From: Methanocaldococcus infernus ME
Lineage (GTDB): Archaea; AGJL01; Methanococci; Methanococcales; Methanocaldococcaceae
Assembly (NCBI RefSeq): GCF_000092305.1
Contig: NC_014122.1
Location: 124,001 to 188,000, forward strand
DNA length: 64,000 bases
Reading direction: 5' to 3'
Of the stretch, positions 25,971 to 37,978 are shown piece after piece. The position numbers were made by a program, and so were the translations under genes. The notes beneath the pieces are model-generated. The model ran no database searches. It saw only the letters and a list, made by a program, of their open reading frames with translations, and was not told the origin of the DNA. Each line of letters starts with the position of its first letter. Positions within the stretch are counted from its first letter, which is position 1.

Positions 25971-26014
25971 TTAGTATTAAAAATATTTAATAAATTTATA
26001 GGTTGGTGTTAATC

Positions 26015-27295
26015 ATGCATAAGGATGTTGAAATATATGCTTTAGCTTTAGATCCTATCTATATAGGAACTGGAGGTTATAAAATAGGGAGAGTTGATAA
26101 TACAATAGTTAGAGATCCTTCAACAAATGAACCAAAGATTCCAGGAAGCTCTTTAGCTGGAGTTTGGAGGTACTATAGTGTTTTGAGAATTGCAGAAGAA
26201 ATAAGAAATAATTTAGATAATGAATTTAATGAAATTGTTAGTTATTTAAAAGATAAAGGAGCTTTAAATGATGAAGAAGTAGATAAATTGAAAGATCAAA
26301 AAGATAAATTAAATTTTTTCTTTCCAAAGTCTCTACTTTTTAGCGTCTTTACTATTTTAAACCTATCAGATTCAGATAAAGATAAGAAAGACAATATAAA
26401 AAATGCCTTTTATGAGTATCTAAGTAATCATATATTTAAAAATAATGGGAGTTATATCTTTTTTGAAGGAAATAGGTTTATTGGAATAAAATGTGCTGGA
26501 CAGGATGATGCTCCTAATCTTAGTATTGAAGATGTAAAAAAGGAAGATAAACCAACTGGACATTGTGGTAGTTGTATAGTTTGTAAATCCTTTGGATTTT
26601 CTAAAAAGGACTTAAGTTGGCAAGGATTAATTTTCTTTAGTGATTTAGAAATTTTATTTTTCCCAGTTTTTACCTATAAAGGGACTAAGTGGGTAACTAC
26701 TAAGAAGAAGCTGGAAAGAGTAGAGATTAATTCTAAAGAACCTTCAAGTATTGATAAAATTTTAGCTAAAGAAAGTGATTATCTTAACTTAGGCTGGCTT
26801 TATTTAAAAGTTGAAGGAGATCATGAAATTAAAGAAGAGGATTTAAAGAAATTAGATTTAGATCTTGAATTAAAACCAGAAGATATAGTTATTGTCTCTG
26901 AAGAGTTGTTTTCTCAAATTGTTAATTCAAATTTAGAGGTTAGAACTTCAGTTTCTATTGATCCAATTACAGGAGCAGCTAAAGAAGGGGCATTATTTAC
27001 TTCTGAAGCAATTCCGAGAGGAACTATATTCTTTGGAAAAATTAGGATTTTTGACAAAACATTCTTGGAAGGTATTGAGGAAAAAATAAAACCAATTCCT
27101 GAAACTGAATTAATTGAGAATATGTTAGAAGATAGTAAAAATTATTTTGAAATTTTTGGAATTGGAGGGATGACAACAAGAGGGTTTGGAAGGCTAAAGA
27201 TAGCCTTAATTAAAGAAAAGAATGAAGAACAAGAAAATAGTGAAGAGGAGCAAATAGAAACCACTTCTCAAGAAAATGGTGGTCAGAATGAATAA
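26015..27295 (+). CDS. cmr4: Type III CRISPR backbone subunit Cmr4 (Cas7)
   Basis: 426 residues of the RAMP/Cas7 superfamily. The N-terminal pattern IYIGTGGYKIGRVDNTIVR followed by IPGSSLAGVWRYY matches Cmr4. Asp28 in RVDNT corresponds to the Asp that cleaves target RNA at 6-nt intervals, so slicer activity looks intact. A cysteine cluster, GHCGSCIVCKSFGF (C-x2-C-x2-C), may bind zinc. The C-terminal FGIGGMTTRGFGRLKIAL is the glycine-rich RAMP loop, followed by a low-complexity Glu/Gln tail. ATG 26015 is chosen over upstream TTG/GTG because of the GGTG spacing. First gene of the effector operon; overlaps cmr5 by 8 bp. Confidence 0.85.
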   Translation: MHKDVEIYALALDPIYIGTGGYKIGRVDNTIVRDPSTNEPKIPGSSLAGVWRYYSVLRIAEEIRNNLDNEFNEIVSYLKDKGALNDEEVDKLKDQKDKLNFFFPKSLLFSVFTILNLSDSDKDKKDNIKNAFYEYLSNHIFKNNGSYIFFEGNRFIGIKCAGQDDAPNLSIEDVKKEDKPTGHCGSCIVCKSFGFSKKDLSWQGLIFFSDLEILFFPVFTYKGTKWVTTKKKLERVEINSKEPSSIDKILAKESDYLNLGWLYLKVEGDHEIKEEDLKKLDLDLELKPEDIVIVSEELFSQIVNSNLEVRTSVSIDPITGAAKEGALFTSEAIPRGTIFFGKIRIFDKTFLEGIEEKIKPIPETELIENMLEDSKNYFEIFGIGGMTTRGFGRLKIALIKEKNEEQENSEEEQIETTSQENGGQNE

Positions 27296-27677
27296 TTCCT
27301 TAGAGAGTTTAATTCAAGGAACTGCTTTTAATATTATAGAGAAAATAAATGGAGTTGGAGATAAAAATAAAAAGAAAAAATTATTTAATTTAATAGAAAA
27401 ATCCTTGGGTGTTTTAACTAATAATGGTGTTTATGCATATTATATCTTTGTTAAATATAAAGAATCTGAAGAGTTTCTATTAGATCCTTTATTTCCTTTA
27501 ATAGATAACATCTTTGGGAAGTTAGACTATAATGGAAAGAAAATAACATTTAAAGATAATAAAGAAGAGTATCTTCAGAAAATCTCAGAAAATATTTATA
27601 AATTATTATTTCTTAAACAAGTCTTGGAAAAGGTTTTAATTTATGCAAGGTATCATGCAAGAGCCCTAAGTGATTAA
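27288..27677 (+). CDS. cmr5: Type III CRISPR small subunit Cmr5 (Cas11)
   Basis: 129 helical residues. Size, position after cmr4, and the C-terminal KVLIYARYHARAL (compare the Cmr5 end helix) support the small subunit that lines the crRNA-target duplex in type III complexes. The middle (LLDPLFPLIDNIFGKLDYNGK) is less typical. ATG 27288 behind GGTGGT is preferred to ATG 27276. It overlaps cmr4 and is followed after one base by the next RAMP gene. Cas11 subunits are poorly conserved, so identity rests partly on context. Confidence 0.7.
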   Translation: MNNSLESLIQGTAFNIIEKINGVGDKNKKKKLFNLIEKSLGVLTNNGVYAYYIFVKYKESEEFLLDPLFPLIDNIFGKLDYNGKKITFKDNKEEYLQKISENIYKLLFLKQVLEKVLIYARYHARALSD

Positions 27678-27678
27678 A

Positions 27679-28536
27679 ATGACATGGTATAGACTAATAT
27701 TTAAGCAAAATCAGCCAATTCATATTGGAGGACTAAAATGGGGAGTTTTGAATGAAACCTTATTATTTATCCCTGGCTCTACAATGTGGGGAGCTTTAAC
27801 TAATGCTTATTTACTAAAGAACAAGCCTTCTTCTAAAGAAGAATTGGAAAAAATAAAAGAATATTTTAAAGTAATAACTTGCTTTTATCCTTGCTTTGAT
27901 AAGGAAGGAAATAAAGTATTATTTCCTAAATTCAATGGAGGAAGGTTTTACCTTGGAGATTTTTTAGAAGAGGAGTTTAGGTTTTACTTCACTGACTCTT
28001 TGGTTAGAACAGCATTAGAACCTATGGGAAGGGGAGCTAAAGAGAATGCTCTTTATGAATTGGAGTTTATTTTATCAAAACCTAAGAAAGGATTTCATGA
28101 GGATATAAGAAGTTTATATTGGGTAGGTGTTATAAAGATTGATGAAGCAGTTAAAGAGATAATTGAAAAAGAAAGTTTTTTAAAAGAAGGTTTAAAAGTC
28201 TTCATTGGAGGAGATGTTAGATATGGCTTTGGAGAATTAGAATTGGTAAAAAAAGATAATGATATTGGTAATGAAGAATTAGAAAAATGGAATTTAAATG
28301 AAAATGGGACCCTTGAGATTAAAGAATTAACTTTAAGGAATTTTTTAGAGTTTGATAATAAAATAAAATTTGAAGGAAAACTTCTTTTAGTTCCTGAATT
28401 AGATTTTAAGGAAAATATTGCTAAAGTTCAAGATGCTAAATTCTTTATTAGCCCAGGAAGTAAGATCTCAGAAGATTTAAAAAACAAGGATAAGTATAAG
28501 CTTATTAAAGGAAGATTTATCTTAAATGGTGAATAA
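27679..28536 (+). CDS. Type III RAMP protein, probable Cas5 (Cmr3/Csx10-like)
   Basis: 285 residues with RAMP hallmarks: an opening strand WYRLIFKQNQPIHIGG, a helix motif FIPGSTMWGALTNAYL, and the glycine-rich loop GGDVRYGFGELELV near residue 180. A C-terminal second fold (KIKFEGKLLLVPEL) follows. In a six-gene type III module, the member that is neither Cmr1, Cmr4 nor Cmr6 should be Cas5/Cmr3, which caps the 5' handle of crRNA; III-C systems are known for very divergent Cas5. The assignment is by elimination. ATG 27679 behind GTGAT. It ends LNGE and couples to cmr1. Confidence 0.6.
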   Translation: MTWYRLIFKQNQPIHIGGLKWGVLNETLLFIPGSTMWGALTNAYLLKNKPSSKEELEKIKEYFKVITCFYPCFDKEGNKVLFPKFNGGRFYLGDFLEEEFRFYFTDSLVRTALEPMGRGAKENALYELEFILSKPKKGFHEDIRSLYWVGVIKIDEAVKEIIEKESFLKEGLKVFIGGDVRYGFGELELVKKDNDIGNEELEKWNLNENGTLEIKELTLRNFLEFDNKIKFEGKLLLVPELDFKENIAKVQDAKFFISPGSKISEDLKNKDKYKLIKGRFILNGE

Positions 28537-28537
28537 A

Positions 28538-29860
28538 ATGAAAAAAGAAGTTGAAGTAGTTTTTGAAACAATAACTCCTCTTTGGACTGGAGATGCTTGG
28601 GGCGAATGTAAGGAAATAAGACCTTCATCTTTAATAGGTAGTTTAAGATTTTGGTTTGAAGTTATTTGTTATTTCTCGGGAGTTTGTAATGGAGATGATT
28701 TTAATGCTTCTTTAAGAAGATTTGAAAAGGAGGTGAATAGGAAAAAATTAAAAGAGTTTATTGAAGAAAATGGGAATAATATTGAGGTTATTTTAAAATA
28801 TTTAGCAAATGATCAAGAAATTCCTATCCCAGCTATTGTTTTTGGAACAACTAATTGGAGAAGTTTAATTGAAATAAAAAGTATAACACCTATTAAAGAT
28901 TATTGTTTTGGAAATAAGTTAAATTTACCATATTCAATAGGAATAAAAAAAGAAAATTTAAAAATTGAAGAATACAAATTAAGAGAAGATTGGTTATATA
29001 AAATAAATTCTTATAGTGGAAAATATTTTAAAGATAAACTAAATAACGCTAAAAAAGAGTATTCTTTCTTTTTCTTTCCTCATCCATATTTTTATGGAAA
29101 ATTTAAAGTTATTTTTAAAGTAGAGGAGAAAATATTGGAAAGTATTTTTTATCCTTTATTAAATTTTATGGAAAAGTATGGTTTCTGGGGAGGAAAGTGG
29201 AATATTGGATATGGTAGGTTAAAAGTGTTAAAAGTAGAGGAAAAAGAAGGTGAAAGTTGGGAAGAAAAAAGTGATTGGAGAAAAGATGAATTTAATTTTG
29301 AAATATTTAATGATAAAGATAAATTAAAATTTAGAAAAATTAAAATTAATGATGTAATAACTGAGAAAATACTAAATAAAAACTCTGATTCTTCAGAGTT
29401 TTTAAAGGAGTTTTTGGAAGTTGATAATTTCCACTGTAACATGGATAAAAAACTTGAAGAAATAAAGAATAAGATTCCTAAAAATATAACATTTCTAAAC
29501 ATTGAAGATTTAAAAGATAAAGATTTCTTAAATTTAATAAAAGAATTATTAAAAATTAAAGTGAAAATGAGAAATTGTCTAAGGCATGAATGTGAAAAAC
29601 TATTTGAAAAATGTTTTGAAGGAAAAAATGGAAAAAAGGAGTTTAAACCAGATAAAGAAATTCTATGTAATAGCAAAAAAATAAAATGTAATGAATTAAA
29701 ACTTTGGAGAAATTTGAGACATCGGCTTTTAGGAAGTAGAGGAGGAGATGGTTCTAAAATACTACCTTTTATTTGTAAAGAAGGTAGTATTTACAAAGGA
29801 GGATTTATCTCTATAGCAGGAGTTTTAAATCTTTATGAGAATAAAGGTGAATCAAAATGA
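28538..29860 (+). CDS. cmr1: Type III CRISPR subunit Cmr1
   Basis: 440 residues. The N-terminal ITPLWTGDAWGECKEIRPSSLIGSLRFWFEVI is the Cmr1 signature (T-P-L-x-T-G-G/D then R-x-S-S-L-x-G-x-L-R-x-W), and GFWGGKWNIGYGRLKV is its glycine-rich loop. Cmr1 is a Cas7-type cap that contacts the 3' end of the target and crRNA. The second half is Lys/Asn/Glu-rich, with cysteines (CLRHECEKLFEKCF) and a late GSRGGDGSKILPFI segment. ATG 28538 sits behind GGTGA inside the preceding stop region; the ATGA overlap leads into the next gene. Confidence 0.85.
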   Translation: MKKEVEVVFETITPLWTGDAWGECKEIRPSSLIGSLRFWFEVICYFSGVCNGDDFNASLRRFEKEVNRKKLKEFIEENGNNIEVILKYLANDQEIPIPAIVFGTTNWRSLIEIKSITPIKDYCFGNKLNLPYSIGIKKENLKIEEYKLREDWLYKINSYSGKYFKDKLNNAKKEYSFFFFPHPYFYGKFKVIFKVEEKILESIFYPLLNFMEKYGFWGGKWNIGYGRLKVLKVEEKEGESWEEKSDWRKDEFNFEIFNDKDKLKFRKIKINDVITEKILNKNSDSSEFLKEFLEVDNFHCNMDKKLEEIKNKIPKNITFLNIEDLKDKDFLNLIKELLKIKVKMRNCLRHECEKLFEKCFEGKNGKKEFKPDKEILCNSKKIKCNELKLWRNLRHRLLGSRGGDGSKILPFICKEGSIYKGGFISIAGVLNLYENKGESK

Positions 29861-30996
29861 ATTATGATTTTTATTTCAATTATAAGACAAATAGTGATCA
29901 GATTTTTAGAGAAACAAATAATAAATTAAAGTCTTATGTAAAACTTAAAGGGGGTTTTGTTAAAAATAAAACTAAAGAATTAAATGGCCATAAAAATTTT
30001 GTTAAAAGCTATGGTAATACATATACGATAGGTGATATAAATAAAATCAAACAAATATCTAGAATTTTTGATAATTTTGAGAATTTTGCAAATTACTTGG
30101 AGAAATTAAATCTCCCAAAATATTCTTTTGGAATTTGGATAAAATTTAAATTAAATGCTCCATACTTTTCAAAAGATGATGATGAATTTTATATTATTCA
30201 AAATCCAATTATTAAAGATTATGCTTTCAAAGTTCCTATGGTTAGACCTTCCTCTTGGAAAGGAGCTTTAGCTAATACTTTTAGGGAAATATTAAAAGAG
30301 AAGGATCTAAGTGAAAAAAGAATATTAATTGAAAGCTACCTAAGAATTTTTGGAGCAGGTTCTGAAGAAATAAAAACTATTGAAAATTATTTAAAAGAAA
30401 AAAGCAAAAATTTAGATAAATTAAAAAAGTCTATTATAAACTTTATTTTGTTTGAGTTAGGTTTAACTTTAGACATTGAAACAATTAATAAAATAAAAAA
30501 TGCAAATTCTGAAACACAATTATTTGAAAATTTAAAAGATAAAATTTCAGAGAAGTTAGAAGATCTAAAGAAAGATAAATTCTATCCTACTGAATTTCAA
30601 ACCCATAAAGGGAGATTAATAATTTTTCCCACTTATTTTGATCAATTAAGTTTAGAAATTATAAATTATCATGATAGAAGAAAAAGAGCTGGAATAAATC
30701 CTGTTTATTATGAAGTAGTTCCTAAAGAAGCTGAAGGAATTTTGCAAATGGTTTATGTTCCTTATGATGGCTTATTAAAAAGTGGTGATGAACTTAAAAA
30801 AGAGATGGAACAAGATTTAAAATATTTATGTCAAGCAATTAACAAATTAGCAGGCTTGGGCATAGGAGCTAAAACTAAGTTAGGTTGGGGAAGATTTGAG
30901 TTAGAAGAAAAATTTTGTTTAGTTTTAAGCAACTTAGAAAATGAAAGTGAGATAAATAAATTAGGATTTGAAATAAGAGTTATTAATGGTGAATAA
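29857..30996 (+). CDS. Type III RAMP protein, Cmr6-like (Cas7 group)
   Basis: 379 residues. RAMP features: IWIKFKLNAPYF, VPMVRPSSWKGALANTFREIL (the PGSSxKG-like helix start), GRLIIFPTYFDQ, and a strong glycine-rich loop LAGLGIGAKTKLGWGRFEL at the end. This layout, with a late G-loop and an adjoining Cas10 gene, fits the Cmr6 position. The segment NYHDRRKRAGINPVYYEVVP looks conserved and may touch the neighbouring large subunit. Start ATG overlaps the cmr1 stop; the protein ends INGE and is coupled to the cas10-like gene by the same 16-base junction as at the cmr3-like/cmr1 boundary. Confidence 0.65.
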   Translation: MNYDFYFNYKTNSDQIFRETNNKLKSYVKLKGGFVKNKTKELNGHKNFVKSYGNTYTIGDINKIKQISRIFDNFENFANYLEKLNLPKYSFGIWIKFKLNAPYFSKDDDEFYIIQNPIIKDYAFKVPMVRPSSWKGALANTFREILKEKDLSEKRILIESYLRIFGAGSEEIKTIENYLKEKSKNLDKLKKSIINFILFELGLTLDIETINKIKNANSETQLFENLKDKISEKLEDLKKDKFYPTEFQTHKGRLIIFPTYFDQLSLEIINYHDRRKRAGINPVYYEVVPKEAEGILQMVYVPYDGLLKSGDELKKEMEQDLKYLCQAINKLAGLGIGAKTKLGWGRFELEEKFCLVLSNLENESEINKLGFEIRVINGE

Positions 30997-30997
30997 A

Positions 30998-33900
30998 ATG
31001 TCCAAGTTGGAAAAATTAAGAGATTACAAAGATGAAATTTTAAAAGCTGAAATAGGGGCTTTACTTTTTAATCTTGGGAAAACTCATATAGGGTTTGGGT
31101 TTTGGAGGAAATATTTCCCTGATAAAGCATCAGAATTTAAGTTTTCCTCTTATAAAGAATATGCAGAAAGTTATTTTTATAGAGAATTAGAAGAAATTTC
31201 ACTACAACTAAAAAACTTCTTTGAAAATATAAACATAAATTTGGGTTTTTGGAACACAGAATTTTTAGAAGTTCTTAAAGGTGGAGAAAGCAGAGAGAAT
31301 TTTGTGAAAAAAATATTCTTTAGAGGTTGTGAAAATATAAATTCAGGAATAGATAAAGGCTCCCCTAATAAGCAATTGGAGCCGCCTTTATGGCTCTCAA
31401 ATGCCTTTGGAAGCTATAAAAGAATCATAGATTCTGACTATTTTGACTGTAAAAGAAGATGCTTTTTTGACGCTTTAAATAACTTTTTGGAAGGAACAGG
31501 AAATAAGCAAAATCAAAGATGGAATGAAATTAGAGAGTTTATTTTTGATTACATTAAAGAATGGTATTCTAAACTTTTAAGTGATTCAAGATTTCCAATA
31601 AATGATGTATCTCTATGGGATCAAGCATATATGACTGCTTCCATGTTTAAGGCTGTTTTGGCACAACTCGTTATGGATAATTCTAAATTAGAAAAATATA
31701 TGAATAATCCCTCTTCAATAAAGTGGAGAATTTTAGGAATTCAATATGATAAATTGGGTTTAGCTGAAAAGGGATTAAAAGTTGCCCATATCCAGTTTTA
31801 TAGAAAATTAGCTGAAGAGATAGATAATGAAATAAAAAATCTTTTAGAAGTTAAGTATCCAATAGGAAATGAGATTTATAGAGATGAAACAGGAATTTAT
31901 TTCTTAGTTGGTGAAGATTTAGGGGATGATCTAAATGATAGAAGTAACCTCGTCAAATTAAAAGAAGATTATAAAGAACTTGAAGATAAAATATTGAAAA
32001 TCTTCAAAGAAAAAACTGAAGATGAGTTCTATCCAGCTATATTTTTAACTGAGGCTTCAAGAGGTTTAATGAACTTAGGTTATTTATTAGAAAAAGCTAA
32101 AGAAAACTTTTTAAAAGCTGATTTAAGCAAGAAAGATAAAGATTTATGTCTTTTAAGAACAGTAAAAGGACGTGCTGTTGGTGTATGTCAAGTTTGTGGA
32201 ACAAGATTAGTTTATGAAAATAGAGAATATGAAGAAAAAATCTGTGAAACTTGTTATAAAAGAAGAAAAGGTAGGATAGATAATTGGATAAATAATTTAG
32301 AAGGAGAAACTATTTGGATTGACGAATTAAAAGATAACAATAATAACATAGCCTTAATAACTTTGAAATTTGAGCTTCAAGATTGGTTAAATGGAAATAT
32401 GTTGAATAGTTTATTGGGAAATAGAGGATTAGAAAATTATGATAATGAATTAAAAAAAATAAAAGAACTTATTAGAAATGGAATTATTGAAGAAGAAAAA
32501 AATAGAATATTAAACTATATTGAAAATTATTCAGATTTAAATAATCTATTAACTTTAAAAAATGAATTAGAAAATTTTACTAATAATACTGATAATATTA
32601 AAAATGTAATTATCAATGAACTGAAAAATACTGAGCTAAAAAAACTAATTTCTAGTTTTATAAGCTTTTTTAATAGTAATAATGTTAGTGATTGTGATTA
32701 TGTTAAAGAAAAAATAGATCTACTCATGGAAAAATTAAATAAAATAAGAACCTCCAATGAGTTATTTCATCTAGTAAAAAAACTTACAGAAAATATGAAT
32801 TTAAAAAAAGAAAAAGAATTAAAAATAATTGTCGAGGATTTAAAAGAAATTAATGAGAAAATATCTAATATTCACAAAAAATTGTTAAACGTGAATGACC
32901 TAGACAAAGAGTTAGAAAAAATACAGAATAATGATTTAAAATTAATAATCAAAAAATTGTCAGAAATAAACATTTGCTACAACAAGATTACTAAAGATCT
33001 TATATTTATGTTGTATCCTTTTACCATTAATAAAGAATTATTAAATTACTATAAAAAATATGACAGCATTTACGATTTCTTTGAAAAAATCTTTTTCGGA
33101 TCAATTATAGGAACACAATGGGAAAATTGGATAAATCAAACCTCACTAAATGAAAAAATTGATTGGCAAAATGAAAAAATAAAATGGGATAAACTAACAA
33201 ATGAAGATATAGAATTCTTAGCAGAACTAATTTTACAATTCTTATTAAGAAAGAATCCATCACCAGCAAGATTAAGAAGAATTTGGGAAAATACTCAAGA
33301 GTTCTTTGAAGAGTTAGAGAAAAATATAGTCAATATACTAAATATCCCAGAATGGAGAAGAAAAAGATTAATCTTTGAATTAGATAAAAATATTCCTGAA
33401 GGAGAATATGAATATAAAGGAGTTTTATTCTGGGCTAAGAATAAGAAACTCTATCTAATCTCTTCAATTGAGGACTTTTTAAGAACTTTTGTAAATGAAA
33501 AAGTTAAAGATATGTTTAAAGATTTAAAGAAAAATAATGAAGAAGCTAACAGAAAAATTTTAGACTATATAAATACTAAGTTAAAAGAAAAAGAATTTAA
33601 TTTTAAACTAATTGAACTAAATAAAAAAGAAGATAAAGAAGTAAAAGCTAAAATCATCTCTATAAAAGAGTATAAGCCTTACTTCTCAATAATAAAACCA
33701 ACTCCAATATCTTGGCAATTTATAATCCCTGCTGAATATGTTCCAAACTTGATAGACAATATAATGAGAAAATATGATGAAAACTTTAAATTTGTTTATG
33801 GAAAGCTTCCTCTACATATTGGAATTATAGTTCAGTACTATAAATCTCCTCTATATATAGGAATAAAAGCTCTAAGGAAAATAAGGAGAGACAATATAGA

Positions 33901-34597
33901 TATAGATGATTTATATCAAGAAACACCTATTGGGGAATTTTGTGTAATACAAAGAAAGAAATTAGCCAACCAAAAATTAGAGGAAAAAATAAACAATACT
34001 GAAAAATATTATTCTCTATATTGGAACAATAAAGACAATAAAGAAGAATATAATTTCTACATAAAGCCTAATAACAATTGGAAAAAATGGATCTCTACAT
34101 TGGATAAGTTTCCAAATAATAGCAAAATTTATATAATCCCAAACACTTTTGACTTTGAATTTTTAGAGACTAATATAAGAAGGAATGATATCTTTTACAA
34201 CAAAAATGGAAAAAGAGTTTTGGAATTAAAGAGTAATAGACCTTACAACATAGAACTACATTGGGAAAAATTCAAGCTATTTAAAGAAGCTTTCTCAGAA
34301 GATGCAACTAAAACATCTCTACACAAGCTAATAGAGAAGCTCTATGATCTTGCATTAAGGAGAGAGCTAAATGAGCAGAAGGAATATGTAGCCACTCTAT
34401 TTATAAACATCCTAAAGCTAAACAAAAATAAAGAACTAACTAAAAAACTTTGTAAAATATTTGACTTAGAAGAAACTGAAAATGTAAAAGAGTTTCATAA
34501 ATATTTAAGAGAATTAAACGAAAAAGAGCTTAAAGAGAGAATCTTAATGTTCTTGGATATGTTTGAATTCTGGCACTACTGTTTAGGGCAAACTTAA
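30998..34597 (+). CDS. Cas10-family large subunit, Csx11/type III-C-like, motif-degenerate
   Basis: 1199 residues. The N-terminal HD region reads [14 protein letters not shown], so the His-Asp pair expected after ALL is Phe24-Asn25; a later [11 protein letters not shown] matches the conserved Cas10 A-D-x-x-S-G-x-D block. Palm 1 ends in [14 protein letters not shown] (294-307) instead of GGDD. A treble-clef zinc finger follows (C397, C400, C416, C419). Residues about 480-690 form a Lys/Asn-rich coiled coil. Palm 2 (about 895-960) carries [16 protein letters not shown] and [13 protein letters not shown] without GGDD. The layout suggests Csx11 (MTH326-like, III-C), probably lacking DNase and cOA synthesis. 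The stop overlaps that of the convergent DUF389 gene. Confidence 0.75.
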
Positions 34598-36959: not shown

Positions 36960-37978
36960 TTGAAATTCTACAATAGAGAGAAAGAAGTTAGATATCTAAA
37001 AACTTATTGCCAGTTGGAGCCAAACTCTATTTTATTCGTTTATGGCCCTAAATCTTCTGGAAAAACGACAGTGATGCTTAAAGTTATTGAAGAACTTAGA
37101 AATAAAGATATAGTGTTTTTCTACTATGATTTAAGGAAATATGCTACACCAACAAAGGAAGAGTTTTTTAAAATATTTTTTGAAAGATCTGATAAAAAAT
37201 ATGTTCCTAATAAGCTGGAATTTAACTTAGGAGTCTTTAAATTCGGAGTTGAGAGAGAGCTAAATTTTAAAGAGTTCTCTTTAAACGATGTTTTTGCTAA
37301 GATAAATGAAAGTATTAATGAAGTTATAAAAGAGGGGAAAAAGCCAGTTTTAATTATAGACGAGCTTCAAAAGTTAAAAAATATTTACTTTAATGGAGAA
37401 AAATCTTTATTAAACGAGCTATTTAACCTCTTTGTACATCTAACCAAAGTTAGACATTCGTGCCATGTCATCTGCTTAACTTCTGACACTCTATTTATTG
37501 AAGAAATTTATAGAAATTCTTCCTTAAAAAACGCTTCCGAATACTATTTAATTGATTGGTTAGAAAAAGAAGACATTAAAAAATCTTAAAAGAAGAGAAC
37601 TTCAGTGAAGAGGAGATAGATTACGCTATAAACTACCTCTCTTTACCATATGAAATAACTGAACTAATAAATAATAAAAAACTTGGCTTAACAGTTGAAG
37701 AAACCATAAAAAAGTGGATAAATATTGAGAAGGACAAGCTTTTATATCTATTGGCTAACGCTAACGTTGATGAAGATAAAATAAACACTATCCTATCTAA
37801 ATTTAAAAATAATGTTAAAGTTGAGGCTAAGGAACTTATTAAAAAAGAACTTATAAACGAATTTAAATTCTTAGTAAATAATGAAATTTTATTTTATGAT
37901 GTAATTAACAGCATAGTAAAACCAACATCAATAATTGAATGGCACGCTATAAAAGAGATAAAATATAAAATCAATTAA
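36960..37978 (+). pseudogene. Frameshifted archaeal AAA ATPase (MJ multi-copy type)
   Basis: TTG start at 36960 behind GGTGATC. The first frame gives 209 residues with Walker A YGPKSSGKTTV, Walker B LIIDELQKL and sensor-like VICLTSDTLF, typical of the archaeal PF01637-type ATPases that form a multi-copy family in M. jannaschii. It stops at 37587-37589 just after an A6 run (37578-37583). Adding one A restores ILKEENFSEEEIDYAINYLSLPYEI and continues open to 37978, giving about 339 residues. So a one-base deletion, or a read error, splits the gene. It holds 14 CpG in 1019 bp, far above its neighbours, which suggests transfer. Confidence 0.8.

Follow-up and report, generated by a model that had tools for sequence, protein, structure and literature searches.

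Explanations of type III CRISPR immunity usually invoke collateral DNA cutting or cyclic-nucleotide signalling. A six-gene type III operon of Methanocaldococcus infernus ME raises the question of which complex it encodes, which activities that complex could retain and where its guides would come from. The operon lies in a 64-kb window (the whole stretch of DNA analysed, bases 124001-188000 of the single-contig genome of 1,328,194 bp) and comprises six plus-strand open reading frames (26003-34597; Table 1), whose successive overlaps measure 20, 8, 11, 4 and 11 nt. It is preceded by a PIN-domain gene and followed by a convergent DUF389 gene. The single promoter originally proposed for the six genes fits these overlaps; sigma-70 promoter and terminator scans stayed at shuffle level, but their models describe bacterial sites and tell nothing about an archaeon.

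Table 1. Features of the III-C operon, in window coordinates
Feature	Position	Strand	Basis
cmr4 (Cas7 backbone)	26003..27295 (probable start ATG 26015)	+	TIGR02580 111.5 bits; PADLOC Cmr4 1e-42
Cmr4 slicer aspartate D32 in GRVDNT	26096..26098	+	PDB alignment to P. furiosus Cmr4 D26
cmr5 (Cas11 small subunit)	27276..27677	+	PADLOC III-C small-subunit Cmr5 model 3.7e-34
cmr3 (Cas5)	27670..28536	+	PADLOC Cmr3 2e-76; Pfam RAMPs
cmr1 (Cas7-type RAMP)	28526..29860	+	PADLOC Cmr1 2.9e-138; TIGR01894 above cut-off
cmr6 (Cas7-type RAMP)	29857..30996	+	PADLOC Cmr6 2.2e-90; Pfam RAMPs
csx11 (III-C Cas10, 1203 aa)	30986..34597	+	TIGR02682 648 bits, E 2.6e-194; PADLOC Cas10c 7.3e-139
HD-motif position, FNLGK instead of HDxGK	31067..31081	+	Alignment of 33 Csx11
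PTPISWQF, proposed site of palm GGDD hairpin (inferred placement)	33698..33721	+	Csx11 alignment

The original prediction of a complete six-gene effector module was borne out, as every subunit family was matched by TIGR, Pfam or PADLOC profiles, and Cmr1, Cmr3, Cmr4, Cmr5 and Cmr6 are all encoded in a single operon with csx11. Cmr5 had no Pfam or NCBIfam match in the profile search. Csx11 matched TIGR02682 from end to end, above the cut-off of 249 bits, and PADLOC returned Cas10c only. At E<=0.001, every structure retrieved with the AlphaFold model of Csx11 (mean pLDDT 71.6, pTM 0.70) was a Cas10 (Csm1 chains); in PDB sequence searches, the Csx11 query gave no match and the Cmr3 query nothing relevant. 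Subtype III-B was rejected, given no Cmr2 model match even at E<=10 and no palm2 match genome-wide; III-A was likewise rejected, given no Csm1 or Csm2 model match, the Csm1 likeness of the fold being that of Cas10 in general. The operon shares with III-B (Cmr) the Cmr1 plus Cmr3–Cmr6 set and the slicer aspartate of Cmr4, whereas its large subunit is Csx11, GGDD is missing and the genome has no Csx1. All profile tests thus pointed to III-C, as first proposed, and none to a III-A or III-B Cas10, with each RAMP recognised. Together, the profiles and the predicted Csx11 fold settle the identity of the operon as subtype III-C, and both identity and completeness of the complex are directly supported by sequence. 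It is a member of a catalogued subtype rather than a new one, sharing with III-C (Csx11; MTH326-type) the six subunit families, the Csx11 signature, the inactive palm and a locus without array or adaptation genes. As a correction to the original prediction, the subtype is already catalogued, and most of its loci are known to lack arrays (PMC12669027).

To assess the enzymatic sites of the large subunit, 33 near-full-length Csx11 proteins were aligned. The palm GGDD was present in none of the 33, the window protein included, and all GG(D/E)(D/E)-like strings fell outside the palm. Absence of cyclase sites and of attached known effectors has been reported for III-C (PMC11229360), and the 2025 classification lists it among the inactive-palm subtypes (PMC12669027). 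At the HD-motif position, neither H nor D was found in 20 proteins (window protein included), HD in 9 and H only in 4; the first scan used C-terminal patterns favouring the HD-less clade, and 20 of 33 is therefore not a frequency. Active-HD type III systems carry HDxGK near the Cas10 N-terminus, whereas the window protein reads FNLGK and all 20 of its clade lack HD; all 20 have E at a nearby conserved position where the other 13 have H or D. In this the window differs from the roughly half of III-C Cas10 proteins with a recognisable HD (PMC11229360); a review also notes that some III-C or III-D variants have an inactivated HD or none (PMC7694759). Window Csx11 thus appears to have lost both of its usual enzyme sites, HD and GGDD, as its sequence directly supports. 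The loss of the HD on top of an inactive palm is the main feature absent from the original prediction; III-C itself, its dead cyclase and the absence of HD in about half of its members are already published. In the literature searched, with most subscription journals outside it, neither an experimental study of III-C nor any treatment of a doubly inactive clade was found. The possibility that a new conserved catalytic motif had taken over the HD position was considered and rejected, as FNLGKTH is not shared by the whole clade (some members read SLFALWDK, FILMDKT or the like).

Relatives were drawn from 22 loci on genome contigs and from 23 of 399 genomes of one bacterial phylum. In a quick Csx11 tree with long branches, built without the HD-motif columns, the 20 HD-less proteins formed one side of a single branch (SH-aLRT 100), such that one change suffices for all 20. 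Their hosts include Methanocaldococcus, Bacillota, Aquificota, Thermotogota, Thermodesulfobacteriota, Cloacimonadota and several candidate phyla; close relatives are thus widespread in thermophilic bacteria, contrary to the earlier view of III-C as mainly a methanogen system. Csx11 occurs in 5 of 14 genomes of Methanocaldococcus (the window genome and 13 others). The nearest rows to window Csx11 were a WOR-3 bacterium and a Clostridia bacterium, whereas the Csx11 of congener L022 grouped with an Aminicenantes bacterium. Because these bacterial neighbours differ, the genus probably gained III-C more than once, as far as a quick tree with long branches can indicate. An HD-containing III-C also exists in the genus: in L021, csx11 occupies two overlapping frames (L021:6498-9855) and is split just before the zinc finger, either naturally or by a frameshift.

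The window order cmr4-cmr5-cmr3-cmr1-cmr6-csx11 was the sole case among about 40 loci. Complete relatives read cmr1-cmr6-csx11-cmr4-cmr5-cmr3, of which the window order is a rotation; in every readable fetched locus except the window, csx11 is followed by cmr4 with at most two genes between. This csx11–cmr4 gap is the slot of other extra genes in related loci, including a gamma-glutamyl-cyclotransferase-like gene (AIG2/GGACT) at L022:17420-17878. Elsewhere, an insertion between cmr1 and cmr6 consists of genes for a SIR2-like protein, a small protein and an SMC-like (LmuB-like) ATPase (L038:2614-7091), and an MJ1010-like ATPase gene appears to be split by a transposon that carries two genes on the reverse strand (L014:2357-4157); a short homologue of this ATPase (209 aa) is encoded at window positions 36960-37589.

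The HD-less clade may have gained a catalytic site in Csx11, or target binding may recruit a host nuclease, giving an uncharted killing activity that we consider unlikely. Several polar residues (K16, E112, N115, Q249, K252, D276, R963 and others, in N-terminally trimmed numbering) are invariant in the HD-less clade and absent or rare in other Csx11 proteins, and in congener L035 a gene for a NucC-like PD-(D/E)XK nuclease (L035:1716-2459; DUF6602; PADLOC NucC 5e-13) sits between csx11 and cmr4. However, no known catalytic motif was recognised in Csx11, the invariant residues may serve structure or RNA binding instead, and no additional gene is present in the window operon. The L035 Cas10 has no cyclase motif despite its NucC-like neighbour.

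Unlike the sites of Csx11, the slicer site of Cmr4 is retained, again directly from sequence: D32 is the counterpart, in the alignment, of P. furiosus Cmr4 D26, which is known to cut target RNA, and this aspartate is kept in every aligned Cmr4 across all relatives. Like the III-E gRAMP (Cas7-11), the window complex would cut RNA under guide direction by Cas7 sites alone, yet it is multisubunit, keeps a Cas10 and has no fused Cas7. It resembles III-G in its inactive palm and lack of adaptation genes, III-G guides also being proposed to come in trans (PMC12669027), but the losses are reversed: III-G keeps the HD and loses the Cas7 aspartates, whereas the window system keeps the aspartate and loses the HD.

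Guide supply was examined across the genome. Neither a CRISPR-type repeat family nor the genome's own array repeats occur within the window, and the claim that it holds no array, cas1, cas2 or cas6 was upheld: the cas1 genes map to 833 k and 1080 k, and cas6 maps to 1119 k. The parallel claim about CARF effectors held for Csx1 (TIGR01897), absent genome-wide with control genomes positive, and otherwise for the best 25 of 78 PADLOC families matched by window frames, among which no CARF appeared. No Cas10 palm2 domain was detected elsewhere in the genome, control genomes again being positive, and III-C appears to be the host's sole type III system. Each of the two cas1 genes belongs to a type I-B locus (Cas8b/Cas7b profiles), and Cas6 has one match genome-wide. 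A pattern search located 15 arrays with 156 repeats and 140 spacers. Their repeats fall into two families, GTAAAATAACGCCCCTAAGGGGATGGAAAC and GTTTGAATCGCCAGTCCATTAAAACAAGGATGGAAAC; two arrays carry a one-base variant of GTTTGAATCGCCAGTCCATTAAAACAAGGATGGAAAC. Both families share the repeat 3' end GGATGGAAAC, except in a few degenerate copies, and all 15 arrays share the 8-nt handle ATGGAAAC. An identical 21-nt stretch in spacers of different repeat families (L050 spacer 10 and L053 spacer 3) suggests that one invader was sampled by both I-B systems.

With no local array or cas6 and with arrays elsewhere, the III-C complex would have to borrow its guides, as had been proposed; one Cas6 match, 15 arrays and one shared handle fit this model, and the I-B arrays are a plausible source. 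Guide sharing is further supported because two related loci (L033, L039) hold III-C genes within I-B operons, combining them with Cas6 and I-B cas8b, cas7, cas5, cas3 and cas1 in one run; of 18 genomes that host an HD-less III-C, 16 also carry Cas6. The handle speaks both for and against this model: some III-C loci have arrays of their own nearby, and the handles of these, ATTGAAAC or ATTGAAAT, are close to ATGGAAAC but differ from it by one or two letters. Spacers of two arrays searched against phages, and of one array against plasmids, gave no match, and RNA targeting by these guides is thus a prediction. With both Cas10 sites lost and guides from I-B arrays, the complex could instead bind without useful cutting and regulate the I-B systems or host genes, as a transcript silencer or a crRNA sponge. 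Such a role is quite improbable, as the Cmr4 aspartate is conserved in all loci and the stretches of the host's own genome searched gave no convincing spacer match beyond short chance-level ones.

A relic, or a recently transferred module that is unexpressed or non-functional in this host, would account for the order rearranged in the window only, the missing local array and the decay of csx11 in two congeners, where an in-frame TAG (L020:2397-6188) or an N-terminal frameshift (L023:9723-13251) breaks the gene. We regard this as very improbable for M. infernus, in whose one-contig genome six open frames, their overlaps and their motifs are intact, though the broken congener copies mean that the system may be dispensable.

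The explanation that we favour, with a probability of roughly 0.68, is a complete and probably functional III-C effector that takes its crRNAs in trans and cuts RNA without DNase or cyclic-nucleotide signalling. In this model, which presumes expression of the operon and a purpose in defence, the single detected Cas6 would trim the transcripts from both families of I-B arrays, yielding crRNAs with a 5' AUGGAAAC handle that would be held by the Cmr3/Csx11 foot, while Cmr4, Cmr1 and Cmr6 would coat the guide and Cmr5 would fill the groove. Complementary foreign RNA would be bound, after which the Cmr4 aspartates would cleave it at intervals; this cleavage is predicted to be the only enzymatic activity left. 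Because Csx11 lacks the HD and GGDD residues, neither collateral DNA cutting nor a cyclic-nucleotide alarm would be expected, and Csx11 would serve as a structural, handle-reading subunit; the chance that it has gained a new active site counts against this explanation.

More broadly, and tentatively, a long-lived, horizontally spread III-C lineage of thermophilic archaea and bacteria may have either become a pure RNA slicer sharing guides with I-B after losing both Cas10 activities, or replaced the HD site by a new activity residing in its clade-specific invariant residues. If the favoured explanation is true, a widespread III-C lineage without DNase or signalling, in a host without another detected type III system, would allow a direct test of whether RNA cutting alone protects, and would provide a simple natural RNA slicer from a hyperthermophile.
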